Shown here in pieces: positions 34,970 through 54,660 of a DNA stretch of 64,000 bases. The notes beneath the pieces are model-generated. The model saw only the letters and a list, made by a program, of their open reading frames with translations, was not told where the DNA came from and made no database searches. Every line of letters begins with the position of its first letter. Position 1 is the stretch's first letter. Where the stretch lies: the NCBI GenBank assembly GCA_902610415.1, contig CACLVL010000002.1, positions 1-64,000 on the forward strand, read 5' to 3'. The DNA comes from an uncultured Alphaproteobacteria bacterium. GTDB taxonomy: Bacteria; Pseudomonadota; Alphaproteobacteria; HIMB59. Both the position numbers and the translations under genes were made by a program.

Positions 34970-35959
34970 TTAAATTTGATCGATGCGACTCATAAGTTCT
35001 TCTGAAATAAAAATATCTTTATTTATATTTTCTTCAAATGCTTTCAATCGCTTTGAACCAGGTGTTCTGGAGCCTTCTTGGGATGAAATAGAAATAAGAA
35101 GTTGCTCTAAACGAGGCTCAAAATCTTGATTAAATTTTTTTGGATTAATAGCTATAAAAAATTGACCTGTAGAGGGAGGGCCACCATCATCACCTGCAAA
35201 TGATGAGGCTTGTGTGCCTAAGTTTCCTCCAGCTACACATGTAGTTAAGATTTCAACTAATAATCCTGTGCTAAAACCTTTGTAACCACCACTAGGAGCC
35301 ATTGTTCCTTTAAGAGCCTCTTTTGCATTTGTTGTGACTTTACCATCTTTATCATATGCCCATCCCTTTGGTATTGGCTCATCAGTTTTTGCTCTCACAG
35401 AAATTTCACTTTTTGCTATAACGCTAGCTGATTGATCGATAATTATTGAAGCCTTACCATTTAAGGGTGCAGCCATTGAATAAGGGTTAGTTCCTATTAC
35501 TGGCTTAGTACCTCCAATGGGAGCTATTGAAGCTGGTGCATTTGTAAAACCTAATCCTATTAAATTTTGTTCAGCAATTCTTTTGGTGTGAAAACCAAGA
35601 ACTCCACAGTTATATGAATTGTAAATAGACATGCAGGAAATTCCCTCGTTGGAACTCATTTTAATTAAATGCTTTAAACCGATATCAATTGCTGTATGTG
35701 CAAAACCATTATCTGCATCAATTTTGATTGATGAACTAGAAATTTGTTCAAATGTTGGATAAGCGTTACCTTTTATCTTACCTATTTTAAGATGATTGCA
35801 ATATATTGGTAAATAGTGAAAACCGTGACTTTTGATGCCACAATACTCGGCGTCAATTATACCATCAATTATACCCTCAGAGTTTTTGAGAGAGCATCCA
35901 GATTTTAATAGCTTTTCAGAAGCTAAATTTTTGGCCAGAGTTTTTTTAAGATAAGGCAA
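34970..35959 (-). CDS. Malate/lactate dehydrogenase (Ldh2/YiaK family)
   Basis: GVLGFHTKRIAEQNLIGLGFTNAPASIAPIGGTKPVIGTNP. Confidence 0.9.
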   Translation of the reverse strand: MPYLKKTLAKNLASEKLLKSGCSLKNSEGIIDGIIDAEYCGIKSHGFHYLPIYCNHLKIGKIKGNAYPTFEQISSSSIKIDADNGFAHTAIDIGLKHLIKMSSNEGISCMSIYNSYNCGVLGFHTKRIAEQNLIGLGFTNAPASIAPIGGTKPVIGTNPYSMAAPLNGKASIIIDQSASVIAKSEISVRAKTDEPIPKGWAYDKDGKVTTNAKEALKGTMAPSGGYKGFSTGLLVEILTTCVAGGNLGTQASSFAGDDGGPPSTGQFFIAINPKKFNQDFEPRLEQLLISISSQEGSRTPGSKRLKAFEENINKDIFISEELMSRIDQI

Positions 35960-36096: not shown

Positions 36097-37095
36097 ATGT
36101 CAATTTTACGTTTATTTACCGCGCTCTTCCTTGCATTAGGGATAACCTCCATTTCTTCTAATGTTAAAGCTGGGGCACACTGCAGTAATGTTACAATTGC
36201 AGAAATGAACTGGGCTTCTGCTCAGGTCATCGCACACATCGACGCTGTTCTCTTAAGAGGACTTGGATGTGAAGTGGAATTAATTCCTGGAGATACTATG
36301 CCAACAGCAACATCTCTGGTTGAAAAAGGTGAGCCTTCAATAGCTCCTGAATTATGGTCTCAAAATATTAAGCCAATCTTAGATCCTGCTGAAGCTGAGG
36401 GTTTAATCAAAAACGTTGGTAAAGTGTTTGAGGATGGTGGTGAAGAAGCAATTTGGATACCAACATACATAGCTCAAGAACATGGTATTGTTACTATCGA
36501 TGATGCTCTTGCAAGACCTGATTTATTCCCACACCCTGAAGATTCAAGTGTAGCTGGTTTCTACGGATGTCCTGCTGGTTGGAACTGTCAGATTACTACA
36601 ACTCAAATGTTTAAAGCATTTGGCATGGCTGATGCTGGATTTGAATTTATTGATCCAGGCTCAGGTGGAGCTCTTTCAGGTGCAATGGGTGAGGCATACA
36701 ACAAAGGTGAAGGTTGGATGGGTTACTATTGGGGCCCTACAGCTATCCTTGGTAAGTATGATATGACAAAACTTGATGAAGGTGTTGAACATGACAAAGA
36801 AACCTGGCTTTCAGAAATCAATGATCTCAATGTAGAAGCTCCAGGCAGAAATAAATATCCTGCCTCAGTTGTGGAGACTTATGTTGGTAAAGATATGCTT
36901 GGAAACGCTGAAGTTATGGGTTACTTGGAGAAAAGAAGCTTTAACAATACTCTTCTAAGTCAAATACTTGCATGGAAAGAAGAAAATCAAGCTGAGGCTG
37001 AAGAGACAGCCTACTATTTCTTAGAGAATTTTTCTAATGTTTGGGGAGAATGGGTACCATTTGACCAAAAACTAGATATACAAAACTCTCTATAA
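36097..37095 (+). CDS. Glycine betaine/proline-type ABC transporter substrate-binding protein (OpuAC/ProX family)
   Basis: Signal peptide; IAEMNWASAQVIAHIDAVLLRGLGCEVELIPGDT; strong SD AAGGAGG at 36085-36091. Confidence 0.9.
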   Translation: MSILRLFTALFLALGITSISSNVKAGAHCSNVTIAEMNWASAQVIAHIDAVLLRGLGCEVELIPGDTMPTATSLVEKGEPSIAPELWSQNIKPILDPAEAEGLIKNVGKVFEDGGEEAIWIPTYIAQEHGIVTIDDALARPDLFPHPEDSSVAGFYGCPAGWNCQITTTQMFKAFGMADAGFEFIDPGSGGALSGAMGEAYNKGEGWMGYYWGPTAILGKYDMTKLDEGVEHDKETWLSEINDLNVEAPGRNKYPASVVETYVGKDMLGNAEVMGYLEKRSFNNTLLSQILAWKEENQAEAEETAYYFLENFSNVWGEWVPFDQKLDIQNSL

Positions 37096-37110
37096 AAGCT
37101 TTATACTATT

Positions 37111-37142
37111 TACCTGGGGACTATGTCCCCAGGTTTTTTTTA
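37111..37142 (+). terminator. Intercistronic hairpin between substrate-binding protein and permease genes
   Basis: ACCTGGGGA-CTATG-TCCCCAGGT followed by a T run. Confidence 0.85.
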
Positions 37143-37160
37143 AAATGAATTTTAATATAT

Positions 37161-38051
37161 ATGTCTAATTTCCTAACAGATTTTCCAGAAATGCCTAACA
37201 AACAGTTTCGCGAATTCAAAAAAGGTGTTGATGCTAGTTATAAAGATTTTGCTCGTGAATGGGGTGATTTAATTGATGCAATGTTTGATCCTCTTCTAAA
37301 AATGCTAGTTTTTTTTGAAAAAACTCTCATTGCTACACCCTGGCCGATATTTATGATTGTTCTTTTAGGTCTTACTTATTGGGGAAGTAGAAGTATTAAG
37401 TTAGTGATTGGAACTTTTTTAGCTTTTGTGTTTATAGGATACTTTAGGATGTGGGATGAAACAATGAGCACTATTGCTATCATACTTACATCTGTAATAA
37501 TGTCCGTTGTAATAGGTCTACCAACAGGAATAGCAATGTCTAGATCTGATCGTACGCAAAGTATAGTTACCCCAATTTTAGATGTCATGCAAACAATGCC
37601 ACCATTTGTGTATTTGATACCTATCGTAATGTTAATGGGCATTGGAAAGATACCAGGATTGATTGCTGTTGTAATATATGCAATACCTCCTTTAATTAGA
37701 TTAACTAATTTAGGTATTCGAGAAGTGGATAAAGAGGCTTTAGAAGCTGCAGATGCATTTGGTGCTACCAAAAAACAAAAGCTATATCAAGTTCAACTCC
37801 CTTTGGCTTTACCAACAATTTTTGCTGGCATTAATCAGACTATCATGATGGCTTTAGCGATGGTTATTATTGCTTCAATGATAGGTGTGAAAGGCTTAGG
37901 ACAACCAGTTTTACAATCTATATATAATCAATATTTTACCAAAGGCGTATTATATGGACTTGCCATAGTAATCGTTGCTATTGTTTTTGATAGAGTATCT
38001 CAGTCTTATGGTCAACGTATTCAAAAACATCGCTCCGGTAAAATAGTATAA
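37161..38051 (+). CDS. Glycine betaine/proline-type ABC transporter permease (ProW-like)
   Basis: Binding-protein-dependent permease EAADAFGATKKQKLYQVQLPLALPTI. Confidence 0.9.
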   Translation: MSNFLTDFPEMPNKQFREFKKGVDASYKDFAREWGDLIDAMFDPLLKMLVFFEKTLIATPWPIFMIVLLGLTYWGSRSIKLVIGTFLAFVFIGYFRMWDETMSTIAIILTSVIMSVVIGLPTGIAMSRSDRTQSIVTPILDVMQTMPPFVYLIPIVMLMGIGKIPGLIAVVIYAIPPLIRLTNLGIREVDKEALEAADAFGATKKQKLYQVQLPLALPTIFAGINQTIMMALAMVIIASMIGVKGLGQPVLQSIYNQYFTKGVLYGLAIVIVAIVFDRVSQSYGQRIQKHRSGKIV

Positions 38052-39074
38052 ATGTCAGAAGCAAAAATACAGATTAAAAATCTTTATAAAATCTTTGGAA
38101 AAAATCCCAAAGGTGCAATGGAGCACGTCAAAAATGGAGTTGGAAAAGATGAATTGCTGGAAAAACATAATCATGTTCTTGGACTAAAAGATATCAACCT
38201 AGATATTCACGCTCAATCAGTTCAGGTTGTTATGGGATTATCTGGATCTGGAAAATCAACTTTAATTAGGCATATCAATAGATTAATTGAACCCACAGAT
38301 GGCAGTGTAACTGTTGATGGTGACGAAGTTTTAAAAATGAATGAAGAGGAACTTCGAAGTTTTAGAAGAGGCAAAACCGCAATGGTCTTTCAACGTTTTG
38401 CCTTACTTCCCCATAAAACTGTTTTGCAAAATACCATATTTGGTCTTCATATACAGAATATTAGTGAAGAAGATGCAAACAAAAGTGCTCTTCGTTGGAT
38501 TGAAAGAGTCGGTTTATCAGGCTATGAGGACAAATATCCTCAACATTTATCAGGTGGAATGCAACAACGCGTGGGTTTAGCGAGGGCCTTAACTAATGAC
38601 GGTGATATTCTTTTAATGGATGAAGCTTTTAGTGCACTGGATCCTCTAATCCGTAAAGATATGCAAGATATACTTTTAGAACTTCAAGACGAACTTCATA
38701 AAACAGTTGTTTTTATTACACATGACCTTGACGAGGCTTTAAAAATTGGAGACCGTATTGCTATTTTAAAAGATGGAATTATGGATCAAGAAGGAATACC
38801 TGCAGAGATTTTGCTAAATCCAAAAACAAAGTATGTAAAAGATTTCGTAGAAGATGTAAATAGAGCAAGAGTGATTAAAGCAAAACATATAATGAGTGAA
38901 ATTAATGGCCAAGATCTCAGTGGGGCTATGCCAATAGACCAGGATGATTTTATTGATCGTTTTATTGATAAAGTTATTTCAGATAAACCCGATAACTTAG
39001 TCATTCAAGACAAAGACAAAAAAAATGTAGGTTTTTTATCTACAAAAAAACTTTCTGAGATCTTAAAAAGATAA
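38052..39074 (+). CDS. Glycine betaine/proline-type ABC transporter ATP-binding protein (ProV-like)
   Basis: GLSGSGKSTLIRHINRLIEPT, LSGGMQQRVGLARAL, two C-terminal CBS-like segments. Confidence 0.92.
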   Translation: MSEAKIQIKNLYKIFGKNPKGAMEHVKNGVGKDELLEKHNHVLGLKDINLDIHAQSVQVVMGLSGSGKSTLIRHINRLIEPTDGSVTVDGDEVLKMNEEELRSFRRGKTAMVFQRFALLPHKTVLQNTIFGLHIQNISEEDANKSALRWIERVGLSGYEDKYPQHLSGGMQQRVGLARALTNDGDILLMDEAFSALDPLIRKDMQDILLELQDELHKTVVFITHDLDEALKIGDRIAILKDGIMDQEGIPAEILLNPKTKYVKDFVEDVNRARVIKAKHIMSEINGQDLSGAMPIDQDDFIDRFIDKVISDKPDNLVIQDKDKKNVGFLSTKKLSEILKR

Positions 39075-39077
39075 CTT

Positions 39078-40517
39078 ATGAAAAAATCTAACTATATTGC
39101 TGGCCAGTGGGTCGAGGGTACCAGTTCAATTAAAAATATTAACCCTTCTGACACTTCCGAAATAATCGATAAGTATACTACTTGTACTGATGAACAATTT
39201 GAACAATCTATTCGTTCTGCCGCTATTGCTCAAAAAGAGTGGGAGACCGTAGGAATTGAAAAGAAATCACAGATACTAATAAATATAGGTGATGAACTAA
39301 TACAAAAATCTCAACAAATCGGAGAATTATTATCTCGTGAAGAGGGAAAACCATTAAACGAGGGTATTGGTGAAGTATCGAGAGCTGGTCAACAATTTCA
39401 GTTTTACGGGTCAGAGTGTTTACGTTTATATGGTGAGAAAATTCCCTCAACTAGACCAGGTTTTCAAGTTGAAATATCAAGAGAGCCTTTAGGAATAGTT
39501 GGTATTATTTCACCATGGAATTTTCCAATAGCAATTCCGGCATGGAAAGCAGCACCCGCAATGATGTGTGGTAATGCCGTGATTTTAAAACCAGCCTCTC
39601 TAACAGTAGGGAGTGCTATCGCTTTAACTGAGATAATTTCTAAGCAAGATATACCTGCTGGTTTATTTAATTTAGTCTTGGGTTCTGGAAGTGATGTCGG
39701 CCACAAAATAGCAACCCATCCAGAGATTGCAGCAATAACTTTTACTGGTTCTGTAGAAGTAGGAAAACAGCTTTATCAAAATTCCTCATCTTCCATGAAA
39801 AAAATGCAAATGGAAATGGGCTCTAAAAACCCATTAGTTGTGATGGATGATGCAGATTTAAAAACAGCCATTACATGTGCGGTTAATGGAGCGTATGGTG
39901 GAACAGGCCAAAAGTGTACTGCTTCCTCAAGATTGATAGTTCATGAAAATATTTATAAAAATTTTGTAAAAGGCTTATTAGAGAGTATTAAAAACTTAAA
40001 AGTAGGACATGCTTTAGATGAAGGGACACAAATGGGACCTGCCTCAAATCTATCTCAGTTTGAGTCAAACTTAAATTATATCGAAGTTGGTAAAAGAGAA
40101 GCTAAACTTGCTTTTGGAGGAAACCCAATGAACATGAGAACCCCAGGATATTATATGGAACCAACCTTGTTCATTGATGGAGATAATAAATCTCGCATTA
40201 ACCAAGAAGAAATGTTTGGACCAATCGCATGTGTAATACCTGCAAAGAACTTAGATCATGCACTTGAAATTGCTAATGCTACAGATTTTGGACTATCCAG
40301 TGGTATTATCACTAATTCTTTGGCAAAAGCTGAGTATTTTAAACAAAATATTAAAACTGGAGTAACGACTATCAATTTACCAACTGCTGGCTTAGATTAT
40401 CATGTGCCATTTGGAGGAAGAAAAGCCTCAAGTTTTGGTCCTCGAGAACAGGGAACATATGCCAGAGACTTTTACTCACAAGTAAAGACTTCCTACATTA
40501 ATTCTGGATCCGTATAA
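39078..40517 (+). CDS. NAD(P)-dependent aldehyde dehydrogenase (ketoglutarate-semialdehyde/succinate-semialdehyde/betaine-aldehyde-type)
   Basis: GSKNPLVVMDDADL, GGTGQKCTASSRLI catalytic Cys region. Confidence 0.9.
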   Translation: MKKSNYIAGQWVEGTSSIKNINPSDTSEIIDKYTTCTDEQFEQSIRSAAIAQKEWETVGIEKKSQILINIGDELIQKSQQIGELLSREEGKPLNEGIGEVSRAGQQFQFYGSECLRLYGEKIPSTRPGFQVEISREPLGIVGIISPWNFPIAIPAWKAAPAMMCGNAVILKPASLTVGSAIALTEIISKQDIPAGLFNLVLGSGSDVGHKIATHPEIAAITFTGSVEVGKQLYQNSSSSMKKMQMEMGSKNPLVVMDDADLKTAITCAVNGAYGGTGQKCTASSRLIVHENIYKNFVKGLLESIKNLKVGHALDEGTQMGPASNLSQFESNLNYIEVGKREAKLAFGGNPMNMRTPGYYMEPTLFIDGDNKSRINQEEMFGPIACVIPAKNLDHALEIANATDFGLSSGIITNSLAKAEYFKQNIKTGVTTINLPTAGLDYHVPFGGRKASSFGPREQGTYARDFYSQVKTSYINSGSV

Positions 40518-40524
40518 TTCTCGG

Positions 40525-41493
40525 ATGAATTTTCGAGTTGACAATCTTCAGTATTGTAACTGGTCTAGAGAAATATTTGAAATAAATCGTGAGGCTAAAT
40601 TAGATGCAGTTCATGCTACGATCTGTTATCACGAAGACTACGACGAAGTTCTCTGTAATATAAAGACTTGGAATACTTATTTTGAAAAAAACAAAGATTT
40701 AATCTTTCAAGGCAAAAGTTCAAAAGATATTGCTAAAGCGAAGCTCGAGAATAAGACTGCTATATTTTATGGTTTACAAAATTGCTCTCCTGTTGAAGAT
40801 AATATTGATTATGTAGAGTCTCTAAAAGAATTGGGCGTACTATTCATGCAACTTACTTACAATAATCAATCATTACTAGCCACCGGGTGTTATGAAAAAC
40901 GTGATAGTGGTATTACTCGAATGGGAAAAGAGGTTATTAAAGAGATGAATCGGGTAAATATGATTATTGATATGTCCCACTCAGCAGAATTTTCAACATT
41001 AGAAGCAATTGAAATTTCAATTCAGCCAATTGTTGTAAGTCATGCCAATCCTTTGTTCTGGCATAAGGGGCTTCGAAATAAATCTGATGAAGTATTAAAA
41101 GCATTAAACGATAGTGGTGGAATGATAGGGTTCTCGTTATATCCTCACCATCTTAAAGATACTTCAAATTGCACTCTTCAATCATTTTGTGAGATGATTG
41201 CAGAAAGTACAAAAAAAATATCTGTTAAGCAAATTGGTATTGGCTCAGATCTTTGTATTAATCATCCAGATAGTATAGTTGAATGGATGAGAAATGGTAC
41301 TTGGACAAAAACAAAAGATTTTGGTGAAGGAACAGCTGATAATGCAGGTTTTCCTCCTCAGCCCTCATGGTTTAAAGATGCCAGAGGTTTTGATAATCTC
41401 CATAAAGGTTTAAAAGATGTTGGTTTCAGCGAAGATGAGACGCACGACATCTTGGGTAATAATTGGTACAATTTTTATAAGAAATTTGATTGA
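40525..41493 (+). CDS. M19 membrane dipeptidase family
   Basis: LDAVHATICYHEDYDEV, MIIDMSHSAEFSTLEAIEISIQPIVVSHANP, IGIGSDLC. Confidence 0.85.
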   Translation: MNFRVDNLQYCNWSREIFEINREAKLDAVHATICYHEDYDEVLCNIKTWNTYFEKNKDLIFQGKSSKDIAKAKLENKTAIFYGLQNCSPVEDNIDYVESLKELGVLFMQLTYNNQSLLATGCYEKRDSGITRMGKEVIKEMNRVNMIIDMSHSAEFSTLEAIEISIQPIVVSHANPLFWHKGLRNKSDEVLKALNDSGGMIGFSLYPHHLKDTSNCTLQSFCEMIAESTKKISVKQIGIGSDLCINHPDSIVEWMRNGTWTKTKDFGEGTADNAGFPPQPSWFKDARGFDNLHKGLKDVGFSEDETHDILGNNWYNFYKKFD

Positions 41494-43148
41494 TGCAAAT
41501 AGATTTAAGAAAACCAGAATTTGTTATGAAATTAGACCGATTAGGGTCTTTTCATCAATCTAAATTGTCTTTTCTAAGAAGCTTTATAAGAGAATTTAAG
41601 AATTGGGAATTTAAAACTAAAGAATTCAACTTAGATAATCGAGGCTTTGGTCATATTGTTTATGTTGTAAATAATGGGCAAAAACAATACTCCCTAATTT
41701 GCTTTTCAAATCATATTGAAGATAGTGAAAGATCTGATCGAGTTATAGCTACGAAATGGGATGCATCTTTTGTTTTATTTGATGGAGTTCCAGCTAAAGA
41801 GGATATTGAAAGGCTTAAAGCTAATGTTCCCCTCCAAGAGCAGGGAAGAGTGAGTGAAAAGGAACTTTGCCTATCTCGAGCTAACAAATCAGTACGTGTT
41901 TTTGAACATGTGGTAGATAAACTGTCTAAAGGTATACAACCTGATACTAAGCTTCTATACAGTGTGGGTTATCTTTATAGAACTACTGCAGTTTATGGCT
42001 CTGGAAAATTTGGATTAGCTGATCGAGTTAAAATTCAAGATAGAGAAGAGCTTAAAGGGCCATTTAGATTGGAGATGATGCTTGTATACCTTGCAAGACA
42101 ATTTACTTTCGATGTCGTCAACCATGTGGCTCACTTTCGCTCTCCAAATAAGGCAATTAAACTTAGCGAAGATATTGCTAGAAATTTAGGTATTGGTAAT
42201 TCTACAGGTTTGGGAATGGCACCCTTTATAGTAAATCATCCAGCTTTATTAAATCAGTGGATCATTGCAAAAGAAAAAGCATTAAAAGCCATTCGATCAA
42301 TTTTATCTGTGAGTCAAAAAGATAAAGATATTTTTGAGTCATATCTTTCTGCTATTCAAGAGAATATTAAATATTGGAAAACGGAGAGTGATTACCAAAA
42401 GAAAAAAAATAAACAGCTTTTAAAGGACTTAGATAGTTTTCAAAATTTTTATTCAACATATTCCTTGAAAAATTATTTTTGGAATTCTATTTACGAGTGG
42501 ACAGAAGCAAATACTCAATCTGAATGCTGTGAGTTTATTGTTTCATTAATGATGGAGGTTTATCCAGATATTGTAGAACCTCTCAGTTATGAAATGTCTA
42601 TAAATGAAGATAAGTACTTTGATATTGATACATCAAAGACAATTTATGAGGTGTGTAAATTAATTGAAAATCAATATACCTGGTTGCTAAATATTGATTT
42701 TGATAACAAAGAAAATATTTTTAATTTTTGGTATTACTCAAAAAATAAACAAGAGCCTCGGATGTCAGATAGATTTTCTGAGGAAGGCTCAGAATTAGAG
42801 CTGCCCCTAGCTATAGCAAGAGATATAAGTGCACTTTATGGTGATTTAAAATCTTATGATTTAAAAAGAGACTTAGGCTATTATTTGTTAAAAAGTCAAG
42901 AATATCGACATATATTAAGAAGAGTCCTGGTATGTGAAAAACTGCCCTACTCAGAAATTCAAGATAACACTATCTCAAAAACTTTAATCCCAGTTGATAT
43001 GATACGACTAAAGTTATCCTTTTTTGGTGCAACACGATTTGATCCTCGTTCTGATCGATGGGTAAGAATTACTATGTATCAAGGTGCTCCCTTAATGAAA
43101 GAAATAAGTACATCTAACGATACGTGGTCTTACAAAAAGATAGCTTAA
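41493..43148 (+). CDS. Uncharacterised ~551-aa protein
   Basis: Long ORF starting within the TGA of the upstream gene (TGATG); no motif recognised. Confidence 0.85.
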   Translation: MQIDLRKPEFVMKLDRLGSFHQSKLSFLRSFIREFKNWEFKTKEFNLDNRGFGHIVYVVNNGQKQYSLICFSNHIEDSERSDRVIATKWDASFVLFDGVPAKEDIERLKANVPLQEQGRVSEKELCLSRANKSVRVFEHVVDKLSKGIQPDTKLLYSVGYLYRTTAVYGSGKFGLADRVKIQDREELKGPFRLEMMLVYLARQFTFDVVNHVAHFRSPNKAIKLSEDIARNLGIGNSTGLGMAPFIVNHPALLNQWIIAKEKALKAIRSILSVSQKDKDIFESYLSAIQENIKYWKTESDYQKKKNKQLLKDLDSFQNFYSTYSLKNYFWNSIYEWTEANTQSECCEFIVSLMMEVYPDIVEPLSYEMSINEDKYFDIDTSKTIYEVCKLIENQYTWLLNIDFDNKENIFNFWYYSKNKQEPRMSDRFSEEGSELELPLAIARDISALYGDLKSYDLKRDLGYYLLKSQEYRHILRRVLVCEKLPYSEIQDNTISKTLIPVDMIRLKLSFFGATRFDPRSDRWVRITMYQGAPLMKEISTSNDTWSYKKIA

Positions 43149-43744
43149 TGCACTCCTTATATGAAATTGAAACAACAATTAAGAGATCATCGCGTGCTAA
43201 GGGCTTAAGTTGGGGCGTTTCTGAGGAGGCTGGAAAAGCAGTAAGAGTATTAGAGCAATCTAAATTTCAAGGATTAGAAAGTTTTAAAAGACTAGTTGAT
43301 TTAGATCTAACTAAGCTTAATAAACTTTTGGATGTAGATCAATCTGATACCAGCAACCTTTGCCCCATACATTTTGGAATTTTTTTTCTTGACCAATCTC
43401 ATAATAAAGACTTACATCGTATTCATCAATTCAAGAATATAAATGAGCCACTATTAATTTTTCCTTTCTTATCTAAGTCAGCAAAAAATAATTTACTCTA
43501 TTTTGATTTAAAGTCATCAGTTTTAAATTTTACAATAAGTCCTGGGGATATTTTTTTTATAGATCAAAATGTGGTTCCTAATAATTTATCAGATTTTTCT
43601 TTAACCATTTCAACTCAAAGGAAAAGCCTATATGACCAAAGTTCTTGGGATTATCTATATAAACTATCACTTGAAACTTTTGTTGAAGAGACAGAAGAGA
43701 AGAAAATTTCTGGAGCTGGTGCTGGTTTAACAGATAATGATTAG
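43148..43744 (+). CDS. DUF3726-like protein of unknown function
   Basis: Start MHSLYEIETTIKRSSRAKGLSWGVSEEAGKAVR overlaps the upstream stop (TAATG); C-terminal GAGAGLTDND. Confidence 0.65.
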   Translation: MHSLYEIETTIKRSSRAKGLSWGVSEEAGKAVRVLEQSKFQGLESFKRLVDLDLTKLNKLLDVDQSDTSNLCPIHFGIFFLDQSHNKDLHRIHQFKNINEPLLIFPFLSKSAKNNLLYFDLKSSVLNFTISPGDIFFIDQNVVPNNLSDFSLTISTQRKSLYDQSSWDYLYKLSLETFVEETEEKKISGAGAGLTDND

Positions 43745-44792
43745 TAGAAATATATCAGGAATTACAGTTATTTGTCTTATTTACATATTTGCAATTTTTT
43801 TAAGACAACCCTTTAGTTATATTTTAAATATATCGGTTCTGCCATTAAGTTTACTATGTCTTATTTTGGGAATATTGTTCTTCAATTTATTTCAATTTTC
43901 AGAAAAAATTCTAGAAGGACGTGATTTTATAAAAAAAAATATTCTTCAATTAGCGATAGTATTGTTGGGTATAAAAATAAGTTTTACACAACTTGCTAGC
44001 GTTAGTGTTCAATCATTAGGGATAATAATAATCACAATTTTGTTGATATTATTGACATATTTAGCCCTCTCAAAGTTATGGCCTGTTCAAAAAGAGATCT
44101 CAAAATTATTGGCAATTGGGACGTCAATTTGCGGTGTTACAGCAATAATGATCTCATCTAATGTTTTAAAATCTAAAGATTATGATGTTGTTACAGCAGT
44201 ATTGATTGTTGTTCTTTGGGGCAGCTTAGCTGTATTGGCTTATCCTTTTTTTATAGAGTGGTATTTTATATCAGATCTAGCTAAGGGGATTTTTTTAGGT
44301 GTAGGTATCCATGATACAAGTCAGGTATTGGCTGCTGCAATGGTGCATAATGATTTATACCAAAATAATAAAGTTCTTGAAATCGCTACTATTACTAAAC
44401 TACTCAGAAATTTATTTCTAGTAATATTAATTCCATGTTTAGTTATTTTAAAAAATAGTGCAGAAAAAACCCCTTCTAAAAATTTATCAATTTTGGATAA
44501 AATTAAAAATTCAATACCACTATTTGTAATAGGGTTTATTGTTTTAATTATTATTCGTGCAGTTATAGATAGTTATTATTTAAGTTCTGTGACTTGGATA
44601 AATATTTTAGAAATTTTAGAAAATGTATTTACTATTTTTTTTGGTTTGGCATTAACTGCTCTTGGAGCTTCAATTAATTTGAAAAAAATATTCAGTCAAA
44701 GCTTTGTCCCAATAGCAATTGGAATGATTTATAGTCTTGTAAGTTTTTTCACCATATGTATTTTAATTTTTATTTTAGGACTAAACATCTAA
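43737..44792 (+). CDS. YeiH-type putative sulfate/sulfite exporter family transporter
   Basis: LAIGTSICGVTAIMISSNVLKSKDYDVVTAVLIVVLWGSLAVLAYPF, GIHDTSQVLAAAMVHN. Confidence 0.85.
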   Translation: MISRNISGITVICLIYIFAIFLRQPFSYILNISVLPLSLLCLILGILFFNLFQFSEKILEGRDFIKKNILQLAIVLLGIKISFTQLASVSVQSLGIIIITILLILLTYLALSKLWPVQKEISKLLAIGTSICGVTAIMISSNVLKSKDYDVVTAVLIVVLWGSLAVLAYPFFIEWYFISDLAKGIFLGVGIHDTSQVLAAAMVHNDLYQNNKVLEIATITKLLRNLFLVILIPCLVILKNSAEKTPSKNLSILDKIKNSIPLFVIGFIVLIIIRAVIDSYYLSSVTWINILEILENVFTIFFGLALTALGASINLKKIFSQSFVPIAIGMIYSLVSFFTICILIFILGLNI

Positions 44793-45373: not shown

Positions 45374-46480
45374 ATGAACCATTTAATCGCTAAAAGTGCT
45401 CGACTTCGCTCCACACCCTATACCAAAAGAATAGAAAAGTATGGAGTTCAATCCTACACAGTTTACAATCATATGATTTTACCAGCATCTTTTAAAGGGA
45501 TAGAGGAAGACTGTCTTCATCTTAAAAACAATGTTCAAGTTTGGGATGTGTCTGTAGAAAGGCAAGTCCAATTTAAAGGCCCTGATGCTGCAAAGCTTAC
45601 ACAGCTTATTACTTGTAGAGATCTATCTAATGCAAAAGATTATCTTTGTTACTATGCTCCAATTATTGATGAAAAAGGAAAAATTCTTAATGATCCTTTA
45701 ATTATGAAGGTTGGTGATGATACTTGGTGGTTATCTATAGCCGATTCAGATATCTTATTATATGCAAAGGGTATTACCATTGGTATGAATTTAGATGTAG
45801 AAATTTCAGAGCCCAATGTCAATATATTAGCTGTACAAGGTCCTAAATCTTTTGATTTGATGGAGAGAGTCTTTGGAGAAGAAATAAAAAAATTAAAATT
45901 TTTTAATTTCAAAAGATATGAATTTCAAGGCCATAAATTGTTAATCGCAAGATCAGGTTGGTCGAAACAGGGTGGATTTGAAATTTATGTTGATGATGAT
46001 GAAGTTGGTCTAAATCTTTATGATAGCTTGATTAATAATGGAGAAGATTTAAATGTAAGACCAGGCTGTCCAAATTTAATTGAAAGGATTGAGGGAGGTC
46101 TGCTTTCTTTTGGAAATGATATGACTATGGAAGATACTCCCCTAGAATGTAGCCTAAATCCTTTTGTATCTTTTAATCCAGATATAAATTATTTAGGAAA
46201 ATCAATACTAGAAAAACAAAATCGAGAAGGAGTACAAAGATCATTAATTGGTTTAAAACTCAAGCTTGATAATTTAACTATAACAAAATACTTACCTATT
46301 CAATTAGATGGTCAGTTTATTGGCGAATTAAGATCTGGTTGTTTTAGCCCTGATTTTGGGTGTTGTCTTGGTATCGCAATGATACAAACCAAGTTTCAAA
46401 ATTTTAATGAAGTTAAGACACTATTGATTGATAATCTAGAAGTGCAATCACAGATGACGTCATTACCTTTTTCAAAATAG
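45374..46480 (+). CDS. dmdA: Dimethylsulfoniopropionate demethylase DmdA
   Basis: RLRSTPYTKRIEKYGVQSYTVYNHMILPASFKGIEED...LIARSGWSKQGGFEIYVDD...RPGCPNLIERIEGGLLSFGNDM; very close to the Pelagibacter-type DmdA as recalled. Confidence 0.88.
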   Translation: MNHLIAKSARLRSTPYTKRIEKYGVQSYTVYNHMILPASFKGIEEDCLHLKNNVQVWDVSVERQVQFKGPDAAKLTQLITCRDLSNAKDYLCYYAPIIDEKGKILNDPLIMKVGDDTWWLSIADSDILLYAKGITIGMNLDVEISEPNVNILAVQGPKSFDLMERVFGEEIKKLKFFNFKRYEFQGHKLLIARSGWSKQGGFEIYVDDDEVGLNLYDSLINNGEDLNVRPGCPNLIERIEGGLLSFGNDMTMEDTPLECSLNPFVSFNPDINYLGKSILEKQNREGVQRSLIGLKLKLDNLTITKYLPIQLDGQFIGELRSGCFSPDFGCCLGIAMIQTKFQNFNEVKTLLIDNLEVQSQMTSLPFSK

Positions 46481-48310: not shown

Positions 48311-49441
48311 ATGAAGGTTCAGTTTTCAAGTGACTCATTAAAAGTGACACACCAAAATCATGATTATGAATTACATCCTATTTGGCTAAGAGAAAGATTA
48401 CCAGGTCGTGAGTATGTCGACAAAGATACAAATCAAAGGCTCTACGAACCCTCTTCTATCAAATTAGATTTGCAAATTAAAACAGCAAAAATTTTAGAGG
48501 AAAAACTTGATATTGAATTCAATGATGGGGCTAAAGGGAAGTATAATATTAAAGATCTTCTAACAGAATTTGATAACGATAAAAACAAACGTGGCCCTTT
48601 ACCTAAAAGACTACTTTGGAACTCAGATTTAAAAGTATTTCCAAGTGTAGAATTTGAAGAAAATATGGTTGAGAGAGAGTCAATGTATAGACTTTTAGAG
48701 GAATTTTATAAATATGGTTTTGTAATTATTAAAAACGTACCAACAAAAAATCAGTATTTACTCAAATTTGTGAGATCTATAGGTCCTATTAAAGTGACTA
48801 ACTTTGGAGAGTATTTTGATGTAATGTCAAAACCTAACCCTAATGATTTAGCTTATAAGCCTATTGCTCTTCCTCCACATACGGACAATCCCTATAGAAA
48901 GCCAGCTGCGCCTGGCATTCAATTTTTACATTGTATTAAAAATGAGGTCAGTGGTGGTTTTTCGACTCTAGTAGATGGTTTTGCAGTTGCTGATTATATT
49001 AAGATCAATTACCCTGAAGCTTTCGAGTCTTTGACTAAAACTAATCTTAGATATCAATTTCAAGATAAAGATATTATTTTAGAAAACTGGGGAGAGCTTA
49101 TTGAGTTGGATAAAGAGGGAGACTATAAACAAGTAAGGTATAGTACAAGAGTTGATTATGTTCCGCCAATTAATCGAAAAAAACTTACAAATTTCTATAA
49201 AGCAAGAAAACTACTAAGTGATTTATATTCTTCATCAGATTTTGAGATTAAGTTTAAACTTAAAACCGGTGACATTATGATGTTTGATAATCATAGACTG
49301 CTTCATGGAAGAACTTCATACAATGCTAATGAAGGTGCTAGACACCTCCAGGGTTGTTATCTAGATTTTGACTCAACAGATGGCAAATTTAGACATTTGC
49401 ATAGAAAACACATTCAAAATGGATCTAAAAATTTTGGTTGA
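48311..49441 (+). CDS. Fe(II)/2-oxoglutarate dioxygenase, gamma-butyrobetaine-hydroxylase-like; probable TmpA
   Basis: N-term HPIWLRERLPGREYVD; Fe/2OG ligands HTD (PPHTDNPYR) and distal H (FDNHRLLHGR); overlaps an HD-domain gene. Confidence 0.85.
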   Translation: MKVQFSSDSLKVTHQNHDYELHPIWLRERLPGREYVDKDTNQRLYEPSSIKLDLQIKTAKILEEKLDIEFNDGAKGKYNIKDLLTEFDNDKNKRGPLPKRLLWNSDLKVFPSVEFEENMVERESMYRLLEEFYKYGFVIIKNVPTKNQYLLKFVRSIGPIKVTNFGEYFDVMSKPNPNDLAYKPIALPPHTDNPYRKPAAPGIQFLHCIKNEVSGGFSTLVDGFAVADYIKINYPEAFESLTKTNLRYQFQDKDIILENWGELIELDKEGDYKQVRYSTRVDYVPPINRKKLTNFYKARKLLSDLYSSSDFEIKFKLKTGDIMMFDNHRLLHGRTSYNANEGARHLQGCYLDFDSTDGKFRHLHRKHIQNGSKNFG

Positions 49442-50039
49442 TAAGTATGTAAAATTTAAACATATGAAAGAAGGTGATAAAAATGATTATTTATTACTTC
49501 AAGAGTATGAAGAAAAATATGTCTCTTTAACTTATGAGAGAATTATCGAAGAACTATCAAGACAAGGAAAAAATACTATGGAGGGCTATAAAATTTCCAG
49601 ACTGGATCATGGACTTCAATCAGCAACAAGAGCTTATAACGATGGGGCTGATATTGATTGGATTGTTGGAACATTACTTCACGATATTGGCGATGGACTT
49701 GCTCCTCAAAATCACGATAGATTTTCTGCTGAGGTCATAAGACCTTATGTTAGAGAAGAAGTAACTTGGGTGGTTGAGCATCATGGAATTTTTCAAATGA
49801 TTTACTACGCCCATCATTATGGTTGGGATAAAAATGCTAGGGATAAATTTAAAGATAATATTTATTTTCAAACATGCGCGGACTTCTGCGAAAGATGGGA
49901 TCAAAAATCTTTTGATCCAGAATATGAGAACAAAGATCTAGATTTTTTTAAACCCATGATAAAAGAGATTTTTAATAGACCTCCATACAAAGAGGAATTC
50001 ATTAAAAAAAGAGAAGTTTTGGGATTACCAAAAATTTAA
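49419..50039 (+). CDS. HD-domain mixed-valent diiron oxygenase-like protein; probable TmpB (PhnZ family)
   Basis: ISRLDHGLQSA, LLHDIGDGLAPQNHDRF, VVEHHGIFQ, ERWDQKSFD: H..HD..H..H..D array; overlaps upstream dioxygenase by 23 nt. Confidence 0.8.
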   Translation: MDLKILVDKYVKFKHMKEGDKNDYLLLQEYEEKYVSLTYERIIEELSRQGKNTMEGYKISRLDHGLQSATRAYNDGADIDWIVGTLLHDIGDGLAPQNHDRFSAEVIRPYVREEVTWVVEHHGIFQMIYYAHHYGWDKNARDKFKDNIYFQTCADFCERWDQKSFDPEYENKDLDFFKPMIKEIFNRPPYKEEFIKKREVLGLPKI

Positions 50040-50080
50040 GATTTGCAAATCTAGATTACTTAAAGTCAGTATAAAATCAC

Positions 50081-50605
50081 ATGAGAATTCTCTTGATAAC
50101 CTTAAGTGTATTACTCACAAATATAGGAAGTGTTATGGCGCAAAACTTACATAATTTTAGTATTCAAGATATTGATGGTAATCAAATTAGTTTGGATAAA
50201 TTTAAAGGAAAACCTGTTCTTCTTGTGAATACTGCTAGCAGATGTGGTTTTACTAAGCAGTATGCTAACTTGTCCAATCTTCATCGTGAATATTTAGATA
50301 AAAATTTAGTAATTATTGGAACTCCCTCTAACAGCTTTCGACAAGAGTTAGATGATGAAAAGGATGTTAAAGAGTTTTGTTTAGTTAACTATGATACAAA
50401 ATTTATCATTTCTGAAATCATTGATGTGAACGGTGAGGACGCCCATCCATTATACAGCTGGATGATGTCAACATATAATGAAACTCCAAAATGGAATTTT
50501 TATAAATATCTTTTTGATGGTGAGGGAAATTTAGTTAAAAGTTGGTCTTCAATGACTAAGCCTGATAGTTCGAAAATTACAGATTTAATAGATGACTTAA
50601 TATAA
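50081..50605 (+). CDS. Glutathione peroxidase family (Cys type)
   Basis: LLVNTASRCGFTKQYANL; WNFYKYLFD. Confidence 0.92.
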   Translation: MRILLITLSVLLTNIGSVMAQNLHNFSIQDIDGNQISLDKFKGKPVLLVNTASRCGFTKQYANLSNLHREYLDKNLVIIGTPSNSFRQELDDEKDVKEFCLVNYDTKFIISEIIDVNGEDAHPLYSWMMSTYNETPKWNFYKYLFDGEGNLVKSWSSMTKPDSSKITDLIDDLI

Positions 50606-50635
50606 TAAAAAGGGCGCGATAAGCGCCCTTTTTTA
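50606..50635. terminator. Bidirectional rho-independent terminator between convergent gpx and amt
   Basis: AAAAGGGCGC-GATAA-GCGCCCTTTTTT. Confidence 0.92.
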
Positions 50636-50654
50636 GGAGTACTATAAATAAGAA

Positions 50655-51935
50655 TTATTTAAATTCTGGGTAAGCTTCTGTGGTAAGTTCAGCTTTATCA
50701 AGACCTGAAGCTTCAGTTTCTTCAGATACTCTTAAACCAACTGTTCCCTTTAGGATGTAGAAGAATACACCACTTAAAGGCACAACTAATACAGCAGCTG
50801 CGATTATGCCAATCAATTGTACTAAGAAGTCACCTGCACCGAAGATACCTACAGCTAACGTTCCCCAAATACCTGCAACTAAGTGAGCAGAAATAGCTCC
50901 CACAACATCATCGATTTTCATTTTATCGAGCATTGGGATAGCAATTGTACAAAGAATACCACCTATCGCACCAACAATCATAGATAAGAAATGATTGGTC
51001 AAGTCAGGGCCAGCAGTAATAGCAACAAGACCAGCAATAGCACCATTAAGTGCGATTGATAAATCAATCTTCTTATACAATAATTGAGATAAAATAATTG
51101 CTGCAACAACACCACCACATGCAGCGATGTTAGTATTTACAACAACGATTGACATTGCAGATGCGTCTGCGGCACTACCTAAAGCTAGTTGTGATCCGCC
51201 ATTAAATCCAAACCATCCAAACCATAGGATAAAGGTACCTAGACATGCTAATGGCATATTTGCACCAGCAATTGGAGTTATTTTTCCATCAGAGCCGTAT
51301 TTTCCAGCTCTCGGGCCGAGGATTAAACATCCAGTTAGAGCCGCCCATCCACCAACTGAGTGAACAATTGTTGAACCTGCAAAATCAGAGAAGCCCATTT
51401 CTGTAAGCCATCCACCGCCCCAAGTCCATGCACCATAAATTGGATAAATAATTCCTGTCATAAACGCAGCAAATATCATAAAAGGCCACACTTTTATTCT
51501 CTCAGCACAAGCACCAGATACAATTGAAATAGCAGTTGCACAAAATACCATCTGGAAGAACCAATCCGATGCTAATGAGTAGCCACCCTCTTCTGCGGCA
51601 ACAGTCAAGTCGTCAGCTGTGTCGTAAAAAGCACCACCTAATGATCCTATATATCCTGAAACATCTACATACATTAGGCTGTATCCGATCAGATAAAACA
51701 TTATTCCTGCAATAGAGTATAATGCTATATTTTTTAATAAAATAGCCGATGTGTTTTTTTTACGAACAAATCCAGCTTCTAACATGGAAAAACCTAATGC
51801 CATGAACATCACTAAGACTCCACTAAAAACAAATAAAAATGTATTAAATACAAAAGCTGTTTCAGCAGAAACCTCTGCACTTGCTACTCCGGAGAGGAAC
51901 AAGGTAGGAATTAAAAAAGTTAATATTTTTTTCAT
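50655..51935 (-). CDS. amt: Ammonium transporter Amt
   Basis: Ammonium transporter signature region DFAGSTIVHSVGGWAALTGCLILGPR. Confidence 0.95.
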   Translation of the reverse strand: MKKILTFLIPTLFLSGVASAEVSAETAFVFNTFLFVFSGVLVMFMALGFSMLEAGFVRKKNTSAILLKNIALYSIAGIMFYLIGYSLMYVDVSGYIGSLGGAFYDTADDLTVAAEEGGYSLASDWFFQMVFCATAISIVSGACAERIKVWPFMIFAAFMTGIIYPIYGAWTWGGGWLTEMGFSDFAGSTIVHSVGGWAALTGCLILGPRAGKYGSDGKITPIAGANMPLACLGTFILWFGWFGFNGGSQLALGSAADASAMSIVVVNTNIAACGGVVAAIILSQLLYKKIDLSIALNGAIAGLVAITAGPDLTNHFLSMIVGAIGGILCTIAIPMLDKMKIDDVVGAISAHLVAGIWGTLAVGIFGAGDFLVQLIGIIAAAVLVVPLSGVFFYILKGTVGLRVSEETEASGLDKAELTTEAYPEFK

Positions 51936-51944
51936 ACGATCTCC

Positions 51945-52286
51945 TTATTTAATAGCCTCAGCGCCTCGTTCTCCAGTACGTATTCGGACAACATCCTGCA
52001 CTTCAGTTACATAAATTTTACCATCACCAATTTTTCCTGATTTAACTGCCTCAGAAATTGTAGTAATGACCTTTTCGGCGTCAGCAGAATCTACTAAAAC
52101 CTCTGCTCGAGATTTAGGAAGAAAATGTACCTCATATTCTGCGCCTCGGTACAGTTCGGTATGACCCTTTTGGCGCCCATATCCTTTTGCCTCAACAATA
52201 GTTAAACCTTGAATATCAACACCTGTAAGTGCCTGTCTCAAAGCTTCGACTTTGTCTGGCTTGATAATTGCTGTTATTAGTTTCAT
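51945..52286 (-). CDS. glnK: P-II family nitrogen regulatory protein (GlnK/GlnB)
   Basis: MKLITAIIKPDKVEALRQAL, YGRQKGHTELYRGAEY (T-loop Tyr). Confidence 0.95.
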   Translation of the reverse strand: MKLITAIIKPDKVEALRQALTGVDIQGLTIVEAKGYGRQKGHTELYRGAEYEVHFLPKSRAEVLVDSADAEKVITTISEAVKSGKIGDGKIYVTEVQDVVRIRTGERGAEAIK

Positions 52287-52423
52287 AAATACCTCTCTAT
52301 ATTTTGAGTAATAAAATATATAAATTCTGAATCAAAAAAAAAATAATGCTAAGAAGTTAACGAAACTATGCATCTAGTGAATATCAAAAGAAATTCAATA
52401 ATATCAACGATATTTCAATTTTA

Positions 52424-53593
52424 TCAAGAACTTGGAAGCGCTTTTTTAGGATCAAAGAAAGGCTTTTCTACTATTATTGCATCTCTGAGAACCCCATAAA
52501 TTTCAACTAATAATTTCATTCCTATTTCAGTGTAATTTTTATCAACCATAGCCAATGCTATATTTTTTTCTAATCGTGGTGAAAATACTGCGGAAGTTAC
52601 TTTTCCAATGCTTTTATCATCACAGAATATTTCCCAAAATATTGTGTTTGGTCCTGTCAAAGAATCTCCCTCTATTTCCAAGCCAATTTGCTTACGTTTT
52701 ATACCTTTTTTTTGAATTTCAATAAGTGCTTTTTTACCAATGAAATTAATGTCACTATCCAAAGATACTAATCTTTCAAGTCCCATTTCAAATGGGTTAG
52801 TATGTATATCTGCATCTGCGTGATATGACAACATACCTCCTTCGATACGGCGAATGCTTGATGTGTGACCAGGCTGAAGACCATATTCATTCCCTGCTAT
52901 CATGATCATTTCCCATAATTTATCTCCCTGAGATCCGTCTCGTAAAAATAATTCATATCCAAGTTCTGTAGACCATCCAGTACGAGATACAACTAAGGGA
53001 ATACCATCTAATTCTAGTTCTTTGAGCCAGTAATATTTTAAATCTCTTATGCTTTCTCCAAATAATTTCACCATAATCTCTCTTGACTTTGGTCCCTGTA
53101 GCTGAAGAGGTGAAACATCTGGTTCATTGATGCTAACATTTAGCCCTGAATTTACTGCAACACCTTGAGCCCAAAGTAAAATATCGCTATCAGATAGAGA
53201 TAACCAAAAATGATTTTCATCTAAACAAAGTAAGACAGGGTCATTGAGTATACCCCCTTTTTCGTTGGTAATTAGAACATATTTACACTGCCCTATAGAT
53301 AATTTGCTAAGATCACGAGGTGTAAGTAATTGAATAAACTGAAATGCATCAGGACCAGTTATCTCAACTTGTCTTTCAACTGCTACATCACATAAAATTG
53401 CATCATTAACTAAATTCCAAAAATTTTTCTCAGGGTCGCCAAAATCCCTTGGGATATACATGTGATTATAAACTGAAAAGCCAGTGGCCCCCCATCGAAC
53501 TGTAGCATCAAAAAATGGAGATTTTCTAATTTGAGTGCCAAATCCAAAATGTTTATTTGTATTTTTACTTTGCATCATAGTGGCTCCTTCCAT
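52424..53593 (-). CDS. GcvT-fold, DmdA-like aminomethyltransferase/demethylase paralog
   Basis: FSVYNHMYIPRDFGDPEKNFWNLVNDAILCDVAVERQVEITGPDAFQFIQLLTPRDL; homologous in layout to the dmdA product at 45374. Confidence 0.8.
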   Translation of the reverse strand: MEGATMMQSKNTNKHFGFGTQIRKSPFFDATVRWGATGFSVYNHMYIPRDFGDPEKNFWNLVNDAILCDVAVERQVEITGPDAFQFIQLLTPRDLSKLSIGQCKYVLITNEKGGILNDPVLLCLDENHFWLSLSDSDILLWAQGVAVNSGLNVSINEPDVSPLQLQGPKSREIMVKLFGESIRDLKYYWLKELELDGIPLVVSRTGWSTELGYELFLRDGSQGDKLWEMIMIAGNEYGLQPGHTSSIRRIEGGMLSYHADADIHTNPFEMGLERLVSLDSDINFIGKKALIEIQKKGIKRKQIGLEIEGDSLTGPNTIFWEIFCDDKSIGKVTSAVFSPRLEKNIALAMVDKNYTEIGMKLLVEIYGVLRDAIIVEKPFFDPKKALPSS

Positions 53594-54129
53594 TCGACTA
53601 AAAAAATTGCTTCATTTCTTCGAAGATTAGGAAGTGTAAAAGGACCATCATATGTAGCTTTAACAGCGGAACCTAGGACTTTTACATCATCGGCATTTAA
53701 TTTGTTTTTTAAAATTTCTCTATGTTTGTAAAAATTTTTATCAGAGGCAAAACCTGAGTATCTAATTACTGCAAAATACCCTGGTTCTATTGTCGAAATT
53801 TTTACTGATTTGTCTGAGGGTAAAGGTATCTCATTTTGTTGAAATCTATTGGGTAAGTAAAATTGCATAACAAACTTATTTTCAATTTCTGTAACATTAA
53901 CTGGTGTAGTCATTTCAATTTTTTGACTTTGTTTATTATTGCCTGATATATATTCAAAGAGTTTCTGAAATCCATTATTTTGATTAGAGTATTGTGTTTC
54001 TACTATTAAACGTTCCTCATAATATCGAATTTCATAAGTATCCGTTTGATAAACAACTCTATAGGGAGACTCACTGTAGGCCATCAAGTTTTGTACCATG
54101 AGTAACAACAATAGTAAGTATTTAATCAT
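53575..54129 (-). CDS. SOUL heme-binding family protein, exported
   Basis: MIKYLLLLLLMVQNLMAYSESPYRVVYQTDTYEIRYYEERLIVETQ...IEMTTPVNV. Confidence 0.85.
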   Translation of the reverse strand: MIKYLLLLLLMVQNLMAYSESPYRVVYQTDTYEIRYYEERLIVETQYSNQNNGFQKLFEYISGNNKQSQKIEMTTPVNVTEIENKFVMQFYLPNRFQQNEIPLPSDKSVKISTIEPGYFAVIRYSGFASDKNFYKHREILKNKLNADDVKVLGSAVKATYDGPFTLPNLRRNEAIFLVEWKEPL

Positions 54130-54658
54130 TGATAGATTGTGTTTCTGAATTAGAAACACCCCACAGTCTCTTATCTATAGGTATCCAACCTTTAACAGAG
54201 GATTTTTTACCATCTGGAATACTTATCTTTACCATTGTCTCATTTACCTCTAATAAGTTTACAATTTTTGGTGCAAGAATTAATCCTTTTTGAATAGTTA
54301 AGAGAGACTCAGGATCATAAGATCTCAGAGCGTATAATTCAGTATCCTCTAAGACTAACAAAGTTCTTTTTTTAGATAACTGATTATGTGCAATCCAACC
54401 CTGTATTCCATTAAATAACTCTATACGATACCAGTCAGTATATGAACTCCAACTATTCTGAAACTCTTCAATAACCCTCACTGGCATATTTTCTTCTGTG
54501 AGAAGAAATTTCTCTGTTTGCTTACTCAAATCTTGATTTTCTGGATAATGACGAAGCCAAGACTCATCATGAGCTAAAGACTTATAATAAGGGATGTGTT
54601 TATCTGTATAAGCAATTAATGGGATTATCAAAAAAAAGAGAATGAGTCTGATCATCAA
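54122..54658 (-). CDS. Exported bacterial SH3-domain protein
   Basis: Signal peptide; NMPVRVIEEFQNSWSSYTDWYRIELFNGIQGWIAHNQLSKKRTLLV. Confidence 0.75.
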   Translation of the reverse strand: MMIRLILFFLIIPLIAYTDKHIPYYKSLAHDESWLRHYPENQDLSKQTEKFLLTEENMPVRVIEEFQNSWSSYTDWYRIELFNGIQGWIAHNQLSKKRTLLVLEDTELYALRSYDPESLLTIQKGLILAPKIVNLLEVNETMVKISIPDGKKSSVKGWIPIDKRLWGVSNSETQSIND

Positions 54659-54660
54659 TT

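Follow-up and report, generated by a model that had tools for sequence, protein, structure and literature searches.

A conserved gene cassette in an uncultured alphaproteobacterium that probably encodes uptake of homarine and its degradation to N-methylglutamate

We analysed a 64,000-nucleotide stretch of DNA (below, the window) from contig CACLVL010000002.1 of an uncultured alphaproteobacterium, and in particular a set of its genes that encodes a betaine-type ATP-binding cassette (ABC) importer (ProXWV), an aldehyde dehydrogenase (ALDH), a protein of the M19 peptidase fold, a 551-amino-acid orphan protein (ORF552), a DUF3726 protein and a divergently transcribed reductase of the Ldh_2 family. 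We think it quite likely that this cassette imports homarine (N-methylpyridinium-2-carboxylate, or N-methylpicolinate) and degrades it to N-methylglutamate. Homarine is the best explanation for three observations: the genes form an all-or-none block, transporters of the betaine type accompany them, and the core triad of M19, orphan and DUF3726 genes lies near N-methylglutamate dehydrogenase genes in SAR11. The source genome (0.99 Mb, 66% complete) has SAR11-type marine Alphaproteobacteria as its nearest named relatives, and the G+C content of the window is 29.8%.

An all-or-none gene block at one site

A first-pass annotation of the window had proposed an operon of eight genes on one strand with tight junctions. 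All eight open reading frames (ORFs) were found on the + strand between 36097 and 44792, and Pfam and NCBIfam agree with the names that had been given to them (OpuAC, BPD_transp_1, ABC_tran (proV), Aldedh, Peptidase_M19, DUF3726 and Cons_hypoth698/YeiH). A base-by-base check confirms the junctions as described, with TGATG at 41491, TAATG at 43146 and eight bases (43737-43744) shared by the DUF3726 and YeiH ORFs. The most likely start codons, judged from the sequence, are ATG 41493 for the orphan (giving 551 amino acids) and ATG 43148 for the DUF3726 protein (giving 198). The features of the site are as follows.

34970..35959, - strand: predicted Ldh_2-family NAD(P)H reductase, divergent from proX (Pfam Ldh_2, 292 bits)
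36097..37095, + strand: proX, periplasmic substrate-binding protein of the betaine-type ABC importer, DmpX-like (OpuAC, 166 bits)
37112..37134, + strand: terminator-like hairpin between proX and proW (10-pair stem, then a T run; consensus match only)
37161..38051, + strand: proW, importer permease (BPD_transp_1, 98 bits; choXWV/ProW models 263-265 bits, under their cut-offs)
38052..39074, + strand: proV, importer ATPase (TIGR01186 proV, 339 bits against a cut-off of 326.6)
39078..40517, + strand: aldehyde dehydrogenase (Aldedh, 508 bits)
40525..41493, + strand: M19-fold protein (Peptidase_M19, 233 bits; nearest structure 2i5g)
41493..43148, + strand: ORF552, the 551-amino-acid orphan (no Pfam or NCBIfam match; conserved family)
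43148..43744, + strand: DUF3726 protein (DUF3726, 56 bits; tail GAGAGLTDND)
43737..44792, + strand: YeiH-type transporter (Cons_hypoth698, 185 bits)
45374..46480, + strand: dmdA, dimethylsulfoniopropionate (DMSP) demethylase, the fixed edge of the cassette site (NF009133, 500.5 bits against a cut-off of 410)

The orphan gene is carried by 13 of 37 genomes of the genus. The genomes that have it also have a close M19 homologue, a DUF3726 gene and an Ldh_2 gene, and the block is absent whole from the remaining genomes; the seeming exceptions to this co-occurrence (G010, G024, G032 and G033) fit contig ends that cut the locus. This pattern of whole retention or whole absence is therefore more than chance (Fisher test, about 1e-7 or better, a value that is not an independent-sample probability because the genomes are related). 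The same site could be read in nine orphan-free genomes, where only ProV-ProX-ProW-YeiH genes lie between a cysE-like gene and dmdA, and the Ldh_2, ALDH, M19, orphan and DUF3726 genes are gone together; dmdA is present at the site with or without the cassette. The catabolic unit is the block Ldh_2/ProXWV-ALDH-M19-orphan-DUF3726, all or none at one site, and the Ldh_2 gene, which was left out of the first-pass annotation, should be counted in it. We judge that YeiH is not part of the cassette and goes with dmdA, because it stays beside dmdA in the nine cassette-free genomes and is missing from the site in five cassette-bearing ones. The eight genes of the proposed operon are not a single unit: the divergent Ldh_2 gene has to be added and YeiH taken out.

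These comparisons also bear on the pathway suggested with that operon, in which an N-acyl or peptide-like organosulfur compound would be imported, hydrolysed at an amide bond and oxidised, with YeiH exporting sulfite or sulfate. The overlap of YeiH with DUF3726 in the window and the presence of dmdA next door fit such a scheme, but YeiH and the cassette each occur at the site without the other, the M19 protein lacks a dipeptidase-type site (below), and in the class-level loci (below) neither dmdA nor a YeiH homologue turns up regularly as a neighbour. We consider this scheme highly improbable, and sulfite or sulfate export drops out of the pathway. YeiH itself matches Pfam Cons_hypoth698 and scores 114.6 bits against the 232.6-bit cut-off of TIGR00698, the YeiH sulfate exporter subfamily.

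Conservation beyond the genus

When 387 genomes of the class were sampled, 57 had the orphan gene; it also occurs at more than 500 sites in bacterial genomes and is carried by 168 plasmids, some of them from Vibrio and Caballeronia. The M19 and DUF3726 genes are its steadiest neighbours: around the orphan in SAR11-type loci they occur in 80 and 78 of 80 cases, in a second family of the order each occurs in 7 of 7 orphan loci, and in the class sample M19 is found in 27 of 32 orphan loci, with DUF3726 immediately adjacent in 26. Within 8 kb of the orphan, the 32 class-level loci also contain the cognate ALDH (11), Ldh_2 (11) and a LysR regulator (9), and about 10 of them have a betaine transporter (BCCT in 6, ProXWV in 4). 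The gene order in Ruegeria TM1040, Phaeobacter and Aminobacter is LysR, ALDH, M19, (BCCT), orphan, DUF3726, Ldh_2, (ProXWV), a unit of five structural genes and a regulator. The unit looks functional and is conserved in many bacteria, together with betaine-type importers of several kinds. The neighbourhood, on whose conservation the first-pass annotation had staked its reading, is found conserved across the Alphaproteobacteria, and the conserved cassette supports its more general idea of uptake and catabolism of a zwitterionic, betaine-like compound.

Cassette-type orphans from marine and soil bacteria share 37-46% identity. A distant homologue (25%) is encoded on pSymB of Sinorhizobium meliloti (L033 8716-12390), with an M19 gene (41%) alongside and an ABC importer of unrelated type; judged by its genes, this set may perhaps encode a sister pathway with a different ring compound as substrate. 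The family may therefore serve several ring compounds, and by similar chemistry the cassette could degrade another betaine or N-methylpyridinium compound, such as trigonelline. We regard this as unlikely, since the cassette-type orphan is well separated from that of S. meliloti and the N-methylglutamate dehydrogenase link (below) fits the 2-carboxylate isomer best.

In Phaeobacter inhibens DSM 17395 (L032 11971-15979) the cassette adjoins dmdA and methylthioacryloyl-CoA hydratase genes. Beside dmdA both there and in the window, it makes the genes for two nutrients neighbours in distant lineages.

The link to N-methylglutamate dehydrogenase

The above comparisons define the unit, but what does it degrade? 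A four-subunit operon of the SoxBDAG type (sarcosine-oxidase type) lies within 8 kb of the core in 48 of the 80 SAR11-type loci, and in four of these loci, taken as a sample, the large subunits share 68-69% identity with a copy that the window's own genome carries. In that genome the SoxBDAG-type operon (contig C10, L234 7487-15501) is followed by genes for a glutamine amidotransferase, a GXGXG protein and a glutamate-synthase domain protein, an order that we take to be the mgdABCD-mgsABC arrangement of N-methylglutamate dehydrogenase and N-methylglutamate synthase. Because this 68-69% identical relative has mgsABC-type genes beside it, we assign the SAR11 neighbour operon to N-methylglutamate dehydrogenase, and its interpretation as a sarcosine oxidase was dropped. 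The cassette and the mgdABCD-mgsABC-type operon, which is complete, sit on different contigs in the window's own genome. For the TM1040 copy, the tree groups long branches together and gives no assignment.

A conserved homarine pathway in environmental bacteria has been published (Ferrer-Gonzalez et al. 2026, Nat Microbiol 11:1531, doi 10.1038/s41564-026-02313-7, as cited in PMC13390433), and N-methylglutamate dehydrogenase takes part in it according to the citing paper. In both of these respects, as far as the citing paper describes them, the published pathway and the cassette are alike, and the cassette is probably a member of that pathway rather than a new one; the first-pass annotation knew of no described pathway with this gene set, and the genomic links point to this one. 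As differences we count that, in the window, no LysR gene adjoins the cassette, the Ldh_2 gene is transcribed divergently and uptake would be by ProXWV. The name homABCDER, which the homarine operon reportedly bears, would agree with a regulator plus the five structural genes of the Roseobacter loci; we do not count this agreement as evidence.

A possible route from homarine to N-methylglutamate

The gene content is observed, and from it we infer the substrate, the order of the steps and their chemistry. ProXWV would import the homarine zwitterion, and ORF552, perhaps with the DUF3726 protein, would open the pyridinium ring between C5 and C6 to leave an N-formyl-N-methyl group and an aldehyde at C5. 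A repurposed M19 enzyme would take off the formyl group, the ALDH would act as a semialdehyde dehydrogenase that oxidises C5 to the acid, and the Ldh_2 reductase would reduce the remaining C=N to give N-methylglutamate, the last step of the cassette. N-methylglutamate dehydrogenase, encoded elsewhere in the genome, would then convert N-methylglutamate to glutamate and a one-carbon unit. Homarine has six carbons besides the N-methyl group and N-methylglutamate has five; if C2 (which bears the carboxylate and the nitrogen) is to be the alpha carbon, the ring carbon C6 must be lost. An opening between C5 and C6 to an N-formyl group and a C5 aldehyde is known for trigonelline in Acinetobacter. Loss of C6 would give the equivalent of a C5 alpha-keto-acid semialdehyde, which matches the nearest families of the ALDH, and the proposed role of the Ldh_2 protein fits its nearest structure, an enzyme that reduces cyclic imino acids. 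Every cassette gene would have a place in this route, in which ring opening by the orphan and deformylation by the M19 protein are the weakest steps.

Breakdown of proline betaine or N-methylproline would also end at N-methylglutamate: N-methyl-pyrroline carboxylate would be oxidised and opened to N-methylglutamate semialdehyde, which the ALDH would convert to N-methylglutamate. This would account for a semialdehyde dehydrogenase and a betaine importer, but it offers no role for the Ldh_2 reductase or for the large, conserved orphan protein, and within the genus the block has no Rieske or other demethylase and no proline-oxidising enzyme; we think it very unlikely.

The ALDH, Ldh_2 and M19 proteins

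The nearest families of the ALDH are the alpha-ketoglutaric semialdehyde (2,5-dioxovalerate) dehydrogenases; its best NCBIfam scores, 484 and 482 bits, are under the equivalog cut-offs of 750 and 770 (482 against 770 for alpha-ketoglutaric semialdehyde dehydrogenase), so that this is its nearest family and not one of which it is a member. The Ldh_2 gene product is a member of the family of YiaK, AllD and delta1-piperideine-2-carboxylate reductase, and among solved structures it comes nearest to that reductase (E 2.6e-41) and to sulfolactate dehydrogenase (E 1.9e-39).

The M19 protein shares its fold family with the membrane (renal) dipeptidases, and it has kept the two His and the Asp of the SH, SH and GxGSD motifs. 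Residues were aligned to 3id7, and their roles are those in human renal dipeptidase. Among 127 full-length homologues the two SH motifs are kept, and GxGSD is kept in 118, but unlike in the dipeptidases the HxD metal motif is found in none, the metal-bridging Glu is Gln in 124 (Glu125 to Gln in the cassette protein) and the catalytic His is Tyr in all 127 (His152 to Tyr in the cassette protein). The nearest structure, 2i5g, a bacterial "amidohydrolase", has Gln and Tyr at the same two positions. With metal ligands and the catalytic residue lost, a canonical M19 dipeptidase was rejected, and with it the amide or dipeptide hydrolysis that the first-pass annotation had expected; these substitutions suggest a repurposed enzyme, which we propose to be a deformylase.

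ORF552 and the DUF3726 protein

ORF552 has more than 90 invariant positions across 14 diverse members of its family, and it matches no Pfam family even at E 0.01 and no NCBIfam model. A fold search with its AlphaFold2 model (predicted local distance difference test, pLDDT, 83) gave no significant PDB match, which by itself does not establish a new fold. One profile match, to V-ATPase subunit C (E 0.001 over a helical stretch), was taken as chance. We propose ORF552 as the candidate ring-opening enzyme.

The model of the DUF3726 protein (pLDDT 84) gives VIA Z values of 8.2-10.5 against 15 Ldh_2-family structures, compared with 4.6 for the next unrelated fold, and 155-158 of its 198 residues superimpose at 3.3-3.7 Å in tight alignments. 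Foldseek places Ldh_2 structures in all of its top 22 positions but at E 0.03 or worse, and sequence profiles detect no relation (hhalign probability 0.3% over 36 columns, with the aligned N-terminus agreeing with the fold alignment). The predicted structure is a shortened Ldh_2-type fold from which about 110 residues are absent, and the protein is therefore probably not a free-standing dehydrogenase. Its nearly invariant C-terminal tail of the GAGAGLTDND type is kept in 105 of 130 cases and is modelled with low confidence, which together suggest that it docks elsewhere, and we propose from the model that the DUF3726 protein is a partner subunit. A literature search found no papers on DUF3726. 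This shortened fold and the orphan, as a conserved family without a recognised fold, both looked new. It is possible, though doubtful, that ORF552 represents a new enzyme class with an unseen fold, which would open the N-methylpyridinium ring with the DUF3726 protein as a cut-down Ldh_2 whose tail reaches the ORF552 active site.

The importer and the genes around it

The closest solved structure to ProX is 7yle, which from matching residue numbers we take to be RnDmpX, a DMSP-binding protein. With the binding-cage residues of DmpX taken from PMC10030565, ProX keeps seven of the eight (the equivalents of Trp35, Thr64, Trp84, Glu113, Trp152, Tyr200 and Trp202), and Ala153 is Asn. In closest structure and in cage equivalents ProX is thus like the DmpXWV DMSP importer (PMC10030565; 7yle), whereas the ProX of cassette-free genomes scores higher against 7yle (250 against 199 bits). 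Only one close ProX was found in each of five genomes searched, and genomes with the cassette have a different allele of it from those without. ProX may work in the uptake of DMSP, of the cassette substrate or of both. If ProXWV were the DMSP importer for dmdA, the substrate of the five catabolic genes would enter otherwise, an arrangement that concerns transport only and is compatible with homarine degradation. The kept cage and the closeness to RnDmpX argue for it, as does the single ProX per genome beside YeiH-dmdA where the cassette is lacking; in other lineages, however, ProXWV adjoins catabolic genes with no dmdA nearby (L034, L192, L199, L200 and L215), and we think the arrangement somewhat unlikely. 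The strong hairpin between proX and proW may perhaps mean that the binding protein is made in excess of the permease.

At the same site in sister genomes (L145-L153), ProV-ProX-ProW genes with another ProX allele (49-51% identical) stand directly before YeiH and dmdA; because the allele differs, importer and cassette appear to have been swapped as a block. Beyond dmdA in the window (48311-56319) lies an island of methylated-solute genes, with a dioxygenase like TauD and gamma-butyrobetaine hydroxylase at 48311, AmtB at 50655, a DmdA-like GcvT protein at 52424 (380 bits, under the DmdA cut-off) and choline dehydrogenase at 54661.

Several points weigh against homarine degradation by the cassette. 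SAR11-type loci seldom have the ALDH (3/80) or Ldh_2 (2/80) gene next to the triad, and their synteny may be one ancestral arrangement and not many independent ones. Since ProX has the residues of a DMSP binder and lies near dmdA, its substrate may be DMSP. ORF552 shows no cofactor-binding motif or fold that would back an oxygenase role, the nearest structures of the Ldh_2 protein are almost tied, so that similarity does not settle its substrate, and the altered M19 site makes any hydrolysis a guess.

Biological significance

Marine algae contain homarine as one of their abundant nitrogen-containing solutes. It is abundant in diatoms and is quickly consumed by a Roseobacter (PMC12817926). Consumption of homarine is also documented for Ruegeria pomeroyi. 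If the cassette degrades homarine, SAR11 and its relatives, which are among the commonest bacteria of the sea, have the genes for feeding on it, and the lineages able to use it are marked by the patchy, all-or-none occurrence of the block. The orphan and DUF3726 proteins would then become defined enzymes, and markers with which the flow of homarine nitrogen could be traced in ocean data.

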